Part shown: piece after piece, positions 2,656 through 5,599 of the stretch
How the letters are laid out: the number at the start of each line of letters is the position of its first letter
How positions within the stretch are numbered: position 1 is the stretch's first letter
Source of the DNA: Nitratireductor mangrovi
GTDB taxonomy: Bacteria; Pseudomonadota; Alphaproteobacteria; Rhizobiales; Rhizobiaceae
Length of the DNA: 64,000 bases
Assembly (NCBI RefSeq): GCF_007922615.2
Contig: NZ_CP042301.2
Location: forward strand, 3,580,001 to 3,644,000
Reading direction: 5' to 3'
Notes under the pieces: generated by a model
Seen by the model: the letters and a program-made list of their open reading frames with translations, nothing else
What the model was told of the DNA's origin: nothing
Database searches by the model: none
Translations under genes and position numbers: made by a program

Positions 2656-2757
2656 CGGTCGTTGCACCGGGCAGGCGCAACCGCTCCTCCCGGCCTGGCT
2701 CTTGCTGCCCGCGGCTTGCGGGCAAAGGGTGCGGACTGCCGTGGAGGGAGCCCGACC

Positions 2758-3201
2758 GTGACCGACATCACCATCCGCCCGCTCGAGGAAAATGACCATG
2801 ACGAGTGGCGGCGCATGTGGACCGCCTATCTGGAGTTCTACCAGACCTCGGTGCCGGAAGATGTTTATGCAACGACCTGGAAGCGCCTTTTCGACCCCGG
2901 TGCGTACGAGCCGAACGGCTTCATTGCCATCGCCGACGACCGGCCGGTCGGGCTGGTGCACTATATCTTTCACCGCACTTGCTGGTCGCAGAAGAACAAC
3001 TGCTATCTGCAGGACCTTTACGCCGATCCCGAGGTTCGCGGCAAAGGCATCGGCCGCGCCCTGATCGAAGCCGTCTATGACATTGCCGACCGGCAGGATG
3101 CCGCCGGCGTTTACTGGATGACCCAGGAATTTAACACGACGGCGCGCCAGCTTTACGATCGCATTGCGCGGTTGACCCCGTTCATCAAATACCAGCGCTG
3201 A
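2758..3201 (+). CDS. GNAT-family N-acetyltransferase
   Basis: A 147-residue GCN5-related acetyltransferase. The acetyl-CoA pyrophosphate-binding motif is RGKGIG at residues 94-99, followed by the usual helix (ALIEAVYDIA). The start is a GTG at 2758 behind a GGAGGG ribosome-binding site. An ATG-led frame from 2662 runs through the preceding gap, but its extra N-terminus is not GNAT-like. The substrate cannot be predicted. It lies downstream of the dehalogenase in the same direction and could be co-transcribed. Confidence 0.88.
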   Translation: MTDITIRPLEENDHDEWRRMWTAYLEFYQTSVPEDVYATTWKRLFDPGAYEPNGFIAIADDRPVGLVHYIFHRTCWSQKNNCYLQDLYADPEVRGKGIGRALIEAVYDIADRQDAAGVYWMTQEFNTTARQLYDRIARLTPFIKYQR

Positions 3202-3231: not shown

Positions 3232-3885
3232 CTAGTTGGTAGCGTCCTTCAGACCTTTGCCAGGCATGAACTTCGGGACATTGCGGGGCGCGACCTCGAC
3301 GATGTCCCCTGTACGGGGATGGCGCGCCTTGCCGCCCTCGCGGCGTGCGACGCTGAATGCGCCGAAACCCTTCAGCTTCACGGAATGGCCATGCGCCAGC
3401 GCCGTAGCGATCTCGTCAAGCACGGTCTCCACGACGATACGGGCCTCGCCGACGGTCAGATGCGCCGCCGTTGCTACCGCCTGAGCGAGTTCCGTTCGTC
3501 CGATCGTCATGGTGGCGGCGTCAACTTCCCCGCTCACCGTCTCGCCTGTTGCGCCGGGCGCTTCTGCCAGCAGCCGCAACACCAGCTTGCCCGCATTCGA
3601 CGGCTTCCGCCTGCCCTGCTCCCAGTTGCGCAGGGTGCCGATCGGCATGCCGAGCATGGCCGCCAGTTCCTGCTGCGTGAGACCGAGATCACGCCGGATG
3701 CCGCCGATGTCCGGATCGTCGACGATTTCGACACTGCCGCCTTCGGGTCGCGCAAGCCGCCCGCTCTCCACCTCGATCATCTGGCGGACCGCACGGTCGA
3801 GTCGCGACTCCTCGGCCTTGTCCGCCTCGACTTTCGTGGCTTCGCGCACTCGCCGATGGGTTTGCCTGTTACTCGTCATCATCAT
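3232..3885 (-). CDS. Antitoxin-like HTH protein fused to an HU/IHF domain
   Basis: About 217 residues with two DNA-binding modules. Counted from an upstream ATG at 3900, residues 63-113 form a HigA/NadS-like helix-turn-helix (IRRDLGLTQQELAAMLGMP, then GTLRNWEQGRRKPS). Residues 131-219 form a full HU/IHF-like domain with the GFGAF motif (178-182) and the Pro-bearing DNA arm RHPRTGDIV (193-201). The first 60 residues are charged and probably disordered. I place the start at one of three tandem ATGs (3885, 3882, 3879), preceded by CTGGAG. These overlap the 3' end of the toxin-like gene, which stops at 3869. The overlap implies translational coupling in the toxin-first order typical of higBA-like modules. 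The HTH-HU fusion is uncommon to my knowledge. Confidence 0.85.
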   Translation of the reverse strand: MMMTSNRQTHRRVREATKVEADKAEESRLDRAVRQMIEVESGRLARPEGGSVEIVDDPDIGGIRRDLGLTQQELAAMLGMPIGTLRNWEQGRRKPSNAGKLVLRLLAEAPGATGETVSGEVDAATMTIGRTELAQAVATAAHLTVGEARIVVETVLDEIATALAHGHSVKLKGFGAFSVARREGGKARHPRTGDIVEVAPRNVPKFMPGKGLKDATN

Positions 3886-4231
3886 CTCCAGGAAGATCAC
3901 CGCGCCTGAAGCGCATGACCCAGGCTGCGCCTGCCAGAGCCCTTCTGCTCCAGCGCCCGAGCGCCGACTGCGGCTCCTGCGCGGGCGTTACGTTCAGCAA
4001 CCATATGACCACCTCGCCCTTGTCGAGATTGGTATCGAGCACAGTATACGCCACGACATGCTGTCTGAACCTGCACCGTCTGATCTGGGGGTCATTTTTC
4101 GACGCCTTTCCGATGACCGGATTGCGCGCGATATTCCGTTTCAAGAGGCTGAGCGCATCCTCGGACAGCCCGTAGTCGGCCCAGGCAAGCTTGAATTCGT
4201 CCGCCGATTCGAACTTGACCTTCAGCGCCAC
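3869..4231 (-). CDS. Putative RelE/ParE-superfamily toxin
   Basis: A 120-residue protein with a GTG start at 4231 and GAGAGG about ten bases upstream. The middle of the protein fits the RelE/ParE fold: a helical N-terminus, NPVIGKAS, then strands around RRCRFRQHVVAYTVLD and GEVVIWLLNVTPA. The C-terminus is unusual, an Arg/Ala-rich stretch ending in an acidic GDDDDE tail. The family call rests on pattern, not alignment. The next gene encodes an HTH antitoxin-like protein and overlaps its 3' end, which supports a type II toxin-antitoxin pair. If so, it would act as an mRNA interferase or gyrase inhibitor; which one is not visible. Confidence 0.6.
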   Translation of the reverse strand: MALKVKFESADEFKLAWADYGLSEDALSLLKRNIARNPVIGKASKNDPQIRRCRFRQHVVAYTVLDTNLDKGEVVIWLLNVTPAQEPQSALGRWSRRALAGAAWVMRFRRGDLPGDDDDE

Positions 4232-4408
4232 GCGGCTTGCCTCTCATATACGCCATTGGCGTAGTCGCTTCAAGAACCACGCTGCCAGTGTACCGACAAA
4301 TATCCACCAGATACAACTCCAGCATGTATTCCCTCTGCCTCTGGCGACAGGTCGGGTGACCGGTTTTTGCGGGCTGACAACGCAGCCGAGGCCAATTAGT
4401 TTGCACCG

Positions 4409-5599
4409 ATGTTCATCCCCTTCTTCCTCGAATTGAAAGTCGCGCGCGTTCCCGTCTCGCTGCGCGAATATCTCACCCTGCTCGAAGGCATGGAGGCCGA
4501 TCTCGTCACCTATGACGTCGAAGGCTTCTACTACCTCGCGCGCTCGACGCTGGTGAAGGACGAGCGCCATATCGACCGCTTCGACCGGGTATTCTCGCAT
4601 GTCTTCAAGGGCGTCGAGGCGGTGTCGGGCGACGGCGCAGTCGACGTTGCCGAAATTCCCGAGGAATGGCTGCGGCGGCTCGCGGAAAAACACCTCACGG
4701 AGGAGGAAAAGAAGCTTGTCGAGGCGATGGGCGGCTTCGAAAAGCTGATGGAGACGCTGAAGAAGCGGCTCGAAGAGCAGCAGGGTCGCCACCAGGGCGG
4801 CTCGAAATGGATCGGCACCGCCGGGACGTCCCCCTTCGGCGCTTATGGCTACAATCCCGAGGGCGTTCGCATCGGCCAGCACGAATCCCGCCACCGCCGC
4901 GCGGTGAAGGTCTGGGACAAGCGCGAGTTCAAAAACTTCGACGACACGGTGGAACTCGGCACGCGCAACATCAAGGTGGCGCTGAAGCGCCTGCGCCGCT
5001 GGGTGCGCGAAGGCGCGCATGAGGAGCTTGACCTGCCCGGCACCATCCACGCAACCGCCGAGCACGGCTACCTGGATGTCCAGACCCGCCCCGAACGCCG
5101 CAACGCGGTCAAGTTGCTGATGTTCTTCGATGTCGGCGGTTCGATGGACGACCATATCCGCGTTGTCGAGGAGCTTTTCTCCGCGGCGCGGGCCGAGTTC
5201 CGCCAGCTCGAATATTTCTACTTCCACAACTGCCTCTATGAGGGTGTATGGAAGGACAATCGCCGCCGGCATGCCGAGGTCATTCCGACCTTCGACGTGC
5301 TGCACAAATACGGCCACGACTACAAGGCGATCTTTGTCGGCGACGCCTCGATGAGCCCTTACGAGATCGCCTATCCGGGTGGCTCGGTGGAACACTGGAA
5401 CGAGGAACCGGGCATCCTCTGGCTGCAGCGCGTGCTCAACCAGTGGCCGAACGCGGTCTGGCTCAACCCCGTACAGGAGAAGCACTGGGGCTACACGCAC
5501 TCAATCGGCATGATGCGCGATATCTTCGCCAATCGCATGTATCCGCTGACGCTGGCCGGGCTCGAAGCGGCGACGAAAGAGCTGTCGCGCAAGCACTGA
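4409..5599 (+). CDS. CoxE-like VWA-domain protein, probable MoxR partner
   Basis: A 396-residue protein with a C-terminal von Willebrand factor A domain. The metal-ion adhesion site begins at residues 241-247 as DVGGSMD, so the second position of the usual DxSxS is Gly. The N-terminal half is helical and charged, with a Lys/Glu-rich segment around 97-130 that could form a coiled coil. There is no signal peptide. CoxE-like VWA proteins normally sit beside a MoxR/CoxD ATPase and act with it in maturing a metalloenzyme or other complex (family knowledge). Here the ATPase is at 875 on the same strand. Confidence 0.88.
   Translation: MFIPFFLELKVARVPVSLREYLTLLEGMEADLVTYDVEGFYYLARSTLVKDERHIDRFDRVFSHVFKGVEAVSGDGAVDVAEIPEEWLRRLAEKHLTEEEKKLVEAMGGFEKLMETLKKRLEEQQGRHQGGSKWIGTAGTSPFGAYGYNPEGVRIGQHESRHRRAVKVWDKREFKNFDDTVELGTRNIKVALKRLRRWVREGAHEELDLPGTIHATAEHGYLDVQTRPERRNAVKLLMFFDVGGSMDDHIRVVEELFSAARAEFRQLEYFYFHNCLYEGVWKDNRRRHAEVIPTFDVLHKYGHDYKAIFVGDASMSPYEIAYPGGSVEHWNEEPGILWLQRVLNQWPNAVWLNPVQEKHWGYTHSIGMMRDIFANRMYPLTLAGLEAATKELSRKH

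Follow-up and report, generated by a model that had tools for sequence, protein, structure and literature searches.

A predicted HigBA2-like toxin–antitoxin module in Nitratireductor mangrovi whose antitoxin ends in an HU domain

Results

Overlapping toxin-like and repressor genes beside CoxE

The window analysed here is a 64,000-nucleotide stretch of the Nitratireductor mangrovi genome (NCBI RefSeq contig NZ_CP042301.2, positions 3,580,001 to 3,644,000), and all coordinates refer to it. Two open reading frames (ORFs) lie on its minus strand, where a sequence-only reading of this DNA had placed a toxin–antitoxin (TA)-like pair. The genes of the locus are:

2662..3201, plus strand: GNAT acetyltransferase, the other flank of the site (Pfam and neighbourhood comparison)
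3232..3882, minus strand: fused antitoxin/repressor of the build N-HTH-HU, 215-216 aa, with its ATG at 3882 or 3879 (ORF, Pfam, alignment, model)
3869..4231, minus strand: toxin-like gene, 120 aa, GTG start (ORF, sub-threshold ParE_toxin match, hhalign, homologs)
4409..5599, plus strand: CoxE-like VWA gene, divergent, a constant marker of the site (Pfam and neighbourhood comparison)

The toxin gene comes first and the antitoxin gene second, and the two ORFs overlap by 14 bp (ATG 3882) or 11 bp (ATG 3879). Starting the fused ORF at GTG 3900, as in the ORF list, appears less likely because homologs begin with MT, MA or MN. A 177-bp intergenic region separates the divergent toxin and CoxE genes.

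A helix-turn-helix and a complete HU domain in one chain

The sequence-only reading had described a HigA/NadS-like helix-turn-helix (HTH) and a complete HU/IHF domain in a single chain. Pfam bears this out, with both domains above cut-off: HTH_3 at residues 62-95 (E 9.4e-9, 35.6 bits, cut-off 23) and Bac_DNA_binding (HU/IHF) at residues 129-216 (E 1.5e-23, 83.3 bits, cut-off 22.4). The latter match covers positions 3-90 of the 90-position profile, so the HU part is complete. The protein is divided as follows:

3712..3804, minus strand: N-terminal helix and following stretch, residues about 26-56, proposed to neutralise the toxin (conservation; remnant in loci L163 and L164)
3565..3711, minus strand: HigA2/NadS-type HTH, residues 57-105 (Pfam, NCBIfam, PDB profile, model)
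3505..3558, minus strand: linker, residues 108-125, pLDDT under 50 (model)
3235..3504, minus strand: complete HU domain, residues 126-215 (Pfam, alignment, PDB profile, Foldseek)

The NCBIfam NadS model matches the fused protein below its cut-off (36.3 bits, cut-off 60), and in a profile search the HTH matches PDB HigA-2 chains with E values of 3e-5 to 1e-4. By these similarities, the assignment of the HTH as HigA2/NadS-like holds. PADLOC returned weak HTH matches only. We also considered MqsA (PF15731), which combines an N-terminal zinc-binding (CxxCG) domain with an HTH, and rejected it: only profile positions 67-125 match, at 27 bits (cut-off 30), and the N-terminal part of the window protein has no cysteine.

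A structure model built from six sequences (pLDDT 63.6, pTM 0.34) places an N-terminal helix at residues 26-38, the helices of the HTH at 58-105 and HU at 128-215, with pLDDT below 50 at 108-125 between the last two. As modelled, HU would be a separate domain behind a low-confidence linker.

The fusion recurs in one other genome

A protein search listed 13 sequences, namely the window's own protein, four other fused proteins (P0002-P0005) and eight HTH-only matches. The four fused proteins join HTH to HU and are 53-60% identical to the window protein. Scanning a genome collection, possibly exclusive of the window's own genome, yielded one full locus, in a Rhizobiaceae metagenome-assembled genome of another genus (JAMLJD010000019.1; locus L006, and G058 in our whole-genome searches). 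This locus has the whole pair with a CoxE neighbour, and its ORFs overlap by 14 bp as in the window; the overlap of the upstream gene with the start of the fused gene, also part of the first reading, is therefore present at both loci. The second match in the collection (L007) consists of the HU part only. By alignment P0003 and the L006 copy are closely similar and do not count as independent cases.

Four other fused proteins and another genome with the whole pair speak against an assembly or frame error as the source of the fusion. According to the reading, such an error would show itself in related genomes that lack the HU part or have it out of frame; HU is present in L006 and in metagenomic homologs, and it is lacking at 13 of 15 loci of the same site. 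Beyond the window, the sequence searches turned up the HTH-HU build in one other genome among those searched here and in a few metagenome sequences, although more distant or independent HTH-HU fusions may exist. In 164 loci we examined 3090 ORFs 100 aa or longer, and HTH and HU occur together only in the window and G058 copies. Only the window copy spans both domains among the matches listed from 397 genomes of the order (at most seven candidates scored per genome), and the same was found in 264 genomes of the phylum (E 1e-37).

We considered carriage on mobile elements and rejected it. No toxin matches were found in plasmid records, phage records or viral contigs, and matches to the fused protein in plasmid records and viral contigs are partial. 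None of 2353 plasmid records matching the fused protein has a place covering 80% of it; two plasmid matches inspected among 20 listed (H1 and H3) are separate IHF genes; and of 94 relatives on viral contigs, none of the best 80 matches beyond residue 145. Among the matches listed in a search of open-access literature, its scope leaving most subscription papers outside, no paper described an antitoxin with an HU domain.

The upstream protein is a probable distant relative of ParE toxins

We next turn to the upstream gene, which the sequence-only reading had called RelE/ParE-like. Its sole Pfam match is ParE_toxin, below threshold (19.3 bits, cut-off 23); NCBIfam models and PADLOC gave no match to it, nor did PDB sequence searches, HigB-2 chains included. 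Fourteen toxins of the family aligned by hhalign with 17 ParE toxins over 51 columns at 94.4% probability (E 9e-8), and three toxins of the HU-bearing group alone gave 82.5%. Reversed-sequence controls stayed at 0.2-0.4% (0.2% for the main comparison). The ParE set was drawn from 39 listed places, of which 20 were fetched as loci and 18 taken, with one dropped for a stop. The protein is thus, by profile comparison, probably a distant relative of RelE/ParE toxins: the kinship shows at the profile level, Pfam giving a sub-threshold match and the PDB sequence searches none. In the same genus, genome G003 has 15 ParE_toxin matches and the window genome has five.

The toxin has two homologs in the protein search, and a toxin profile search of proteins found none beyond those two. 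A structure model of the toxin, built from four sequences, has a pLDDT of 66.2. Comparisons by Foldseek and VIA-align neither established nor excluded a RelE/ParE fold, the structural match whose absence the first reading had named as a refutation. In a toxin tree of 17 rows, HU-bearing and HU-less groups separate; proteins P0015 and P0016 are placed in the HU-bearing group by this tree, and an HU antitoxin is known for its two other members. The two groups are homologous (hhalign probability 97.4%, E 9.6e-12), and the window toxin is 23-25% identical to the toxins of G553 and G024.

The toxin carries a C-terminal extension ending in an acidic tail. This tail is found in all four toxins of the HU-bearing group (two of them with a known HU antitoxin) and in none of 12 aligned HU-less toxins. 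It is partly encoded in the overlap with the antitoxin start, and may for that reason be without a function of its own.

One site, one toxin family and three antitoxin builds

Using the toxin profile, we found the family in 15 of 394 genomes of the same family, spread over seven genera with one copy each. The toxin family was found in one of 269 genomes of the order (the window's own) and in two of 101 relatives (the window's own and G058). All 15 toxin loci lie at the CoxE/VWA locus, at a distance from CoxE of up to about 180 bp in 12 and of about 1.1 kb in three. The antitoxins come in three builds: N-HTH-HU at two loci (the window and G058), N-HTH at 11 (G024, G553, G699, G680, G527, G638, G514, G749, G044, G586 and G030) and the N-terminal part only at two. 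HU is therefore absent from 13 of the 15 loci, the window being counted among them. The N-HTH antitoxins measure 107 to 123 aa by ORF listing, with the listed frame of G030 starting further upstream. Comparing the junctions of the 15 loci, we noted that in L152 the antitoxin starts a few bases past the toxin stop.

At the two remaining loci, in G023 (L163) and G714 (L164) of one genus, the toxin is kept and the antitoxin is a 66-aa protein corresponding to the N-terminal part; when two antitoxins were used as tblastn queries, no frame of these loci gave an HTH. Because the N-terminal part remains where the HTH is missing, it is likely, by analogy to HigA2, to be the neutralising part.

The interval between GNAT and CoxE varies among relatives. 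The toxin was not found in any of the three other genomes of the genus: in two of them GNAT and CoxE are 112-114 bp apart, and in one a FitA-like RHH and PIN pair lies between them. CoxE itself is present in 91 of 151 genomes of the family. In 32 stretches upstream of CoxE, tblastn detected the HU-bearing module in two (window and G058) and an HTH-only relative in one. We read the ORFs of 16 of these stretches. Three contain FitA-like genes, accompanied in two cases by a PIN gene, and one contains HicAB (together L103, L118, L125 and L117); Pfam confirmed these assignments. Other stretches hold non-TA genes, by eye for example a lysozyme-like protein and transporters. Upstream of CoxE in L126 and L130 are small ORFs resembling HNH proteins by eye. 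The interval thus appears to be variable and to take known TA modules in some relatives; since FitA-like/PIN and HicAB genes occupy it, it supports a TA reading of the window pair without proving it.

The constant position of the family beside CoxE (15/15 loci), together with the weak toxin similarity, would also fit an upstream protein that is no toxin at all, in an operon whose repressor regulates both itself and the divergent CoxE gene. We regard this as very unlikely, given the profile kinship to ParE toxins with its clean reversed control, the two loci that retain the upstream gene and the antitoxin N-terminal part with the HTH missing, and the known TA families in the same interval of some relatives.

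A conserved candidate operator accompanies the HTH

Two features lie upstream of the toxin gene:

4245..4273, minus strand: predicted sigma-70 toxin promoter, TTGAAG, 17-bp spacer, TATATG (sequence pattern)
4249..4263: candidate operator palindrome TACGC-CATTG-GCGTA (conservation, palindrome counts)

In the window, the operator takes up most of the promoter spacer and extends over the beginning of the -10 element. Allowing for one mismatch at most, the palindrome TACGCCANTGGCGTA is found upstream of the toxin at all 13 HTH-bearing loci and at neither of the two HTH-less loci. At each of the 13, a TTG starts ten bases before the palindrome and a TA-starting hexamer follows a 17-bp spacer. Shuffles of the upstream 100 bases, which preserve base composition only, matched as well in 0 of 1000 cases at the 13 HTH-bearing loci; the best sites at the HTH-less loci have six and four mismatches, and 596 and 32 of 1000 shuffles, respectively, did as well. 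HTH and operator are thus present or absent together. The claim of a TA-like pair gains from both results, a toxin/HTH-antitoxin family conserved at 15 loci and a conserved operator. At L158 (G514), two tandem operator copies with one mismatch each lie upstream of the toxin gene.

We then asked where else the operator occurs. With up to two mismatches the window genome has seven sites (one exact, none with one mismatch, six with two) and six for a backwards control. A wider regulon is accordingly not supported, since the genome has a single exact operator and as many near-matches as the control yields. The exact palindrome is present in 10 of 394 genomes of the family, a count that says little by itself, as the backwards control reaches six among the genomes listed. 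Five of these ten palindromes lie upstream of a homologous HTH operon, and BLAST found no such operon at the other five (L135, L136, L137, L139 and L140). At L132 (G464:C1 near 712821), an identical palindrome lies upstream of a HigB2-type toxin/NadS-like operon, the toxin of which matches PDB HigB-2 with an E value of 1.8e-13.

The fused HU domain is intact and resembles resident HU

Foldseek of the HU part returned HU/IHF-type chains in all 50 rows shown, with target-normalised TM-scores mostly of 0.6-0.8. Identity to the resident HU protein is 49% for the window domain, 67% for G058, 64% for P0004, 48% for P0005 and 46% for P0002, and the same five domains are 30-43% identical to resident IHF-beta and 30-38% to IHF-alpha. 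By identity, then, the fused domain appears closer to resident HU than to the resident IHF subunits, and an origin from resident HU is likely for the G058 and P0004 domains and possible for the window's copy. The HU profile used with the 164 loci contained an L091 row taken from the wrong strand, and L091 identities were disregarded.

This likeness bears on whether HU might serve as a tether, holding the repressor at the nucleoid or pairing it with cellular HU in mixed dimers, such that TA output follows HU level or nucleoid state. The window, G058 and P0004 domains are nearer resident HU than IHF-beta (40-43%) or IHF-alpha (33-38%), which speaks for a tether. An HU tree of 21 rows, with 14 of 18 forks open and a long-branch warning, groups the window and P0002 domains weakly with IHF-beta instead. 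We consider a tether quite unlikely. With so few resolved forks, the tree gives neither a date nor a position for the capture of HU.

Operator and predicted promoter are alike in HU-bearing and HU-less modules. That would be expected if HU were a captured copy carried along as a neutral or stabilising passenger, making the protein more soluble or its dimer stronger and leaving regulation unaltered; judged by eye, the fused proteins also agree better in their HTH block than in their HU block. We think this unlikely, however: the arm residues R186, P188, T190 and G191 and the GFG core are invariant in all six aligned rows, in proteins 53-60% identical to the window's, with the qualification that two of the rows, P0003 and the L006 copy, are the close pair noted above. 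The HU domain of the window protein is complete, and its DNA-intercalating arm is intact. Because operator and predicted promoter look alike with or without HU, its most likely role would be to act on DNA flanking the same operator, with extra grip and a bend, and not at new sites.

Discussion

Together, these observations suggest that the locus is probably a chromosomal type II TA module of the HigBA2 kind, in which the HU domain of the antitoxin adds DNA binding and bending at its own operator. The N-terminal part of the antitoxin would neutralise the toxin, and an HTH dimer would bind the single palindrome in the -35/-10 spacer and keep the toxin-first operon shut. The C-terminal HU would then contribute sequence-independent DNA binding and bending beside the operator, either tightening repression or bending the promoter region between the divergent toxin and CoxE genes into a repression complex. 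We infer, that is, that the upstream protein would be toxic, that its partner would neutralise it and that HU would act at the module's own promoter.

Possible, if doubtful, is a regulator that behaves more like a chromatin protein. The HTH would dock the dimer, the linked HU pair would bend or wrap the 177-bp region, and the acidic tail of the toxin would compete with DNA for the basic HU surface, letting the toxin level open or close the promoter.

The site has a broader interest. One syntenic locus with one toxin family and three antitoxin builds amounts to a natural dissection of antitoxin parts, and the HU-bearing form would show how the capture of a nucleoid protein can equip a TA repressor with architectural DNA binding.

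Comparison with known systems

The closest described system is HigBA2 of Vibrio cholerae (PDB 5ja8, 5jaa and 8a0w). In the published account, HigA2 has an N-terminal toxin-binding region before an XRE-type HTH, as the window antitoxin would too; the disordered N-terminal region of HigA2 serves both to neutralise the toxin and to increase affinity for the operator, by a factor of more than 15, and the HigA2 dimer bends the operator by 33 degrees (PMC11006873). The HigA2 footprint, TGTACGC(N)5GCGTACA, lies between -35 and -10 upstream of higB2, and the window shares this arrangement of a single inverted repeat, TACGC-N5-GCGTA, with equal half-sites (PMC11006873). Because its HTH-linked operator has the V. 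cholerae HigA2 half-sites, the pair is, as judged from sequence, predicted to be a HigBA2-like module whose repressor has gained an HU domain. The differences lie in both proteins: PDB HigA2 chains are 103-104 aa long, whereas the window antitoxin adds a linker and HU after the HTH, and the window toxin, extended at its C terminus, gives no sequence match to HigB-2 chains.

The N-HTH modules of the CoxE site share with the window a homologous toxin and a locus, operator and predicted promoter that are identical in kind. They differ in having no HU, and their toxins lack the acidic tail.

Within the HU/IHF family (PF00216), the window domain is complete, has the arm motif RxPxTG and is nearest in identity to resident HU, but it forms the C-terminal domain of an antitoxin-like repressor. 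HU is joined to another domain in HU-HIG proteins too (PF18291; HU with a wHTH, Ig or Gly-rich motif), mainly a Bacteroidetes family. The window HU part passes the HU-HIG cut-off (34.9 bits, cut-off 26.2), far below its PF00216 score. The window protein differs from HU-HIG proteins in that its HU is joined to an XRE-type HTH and its gene lies in a TA-like operon.
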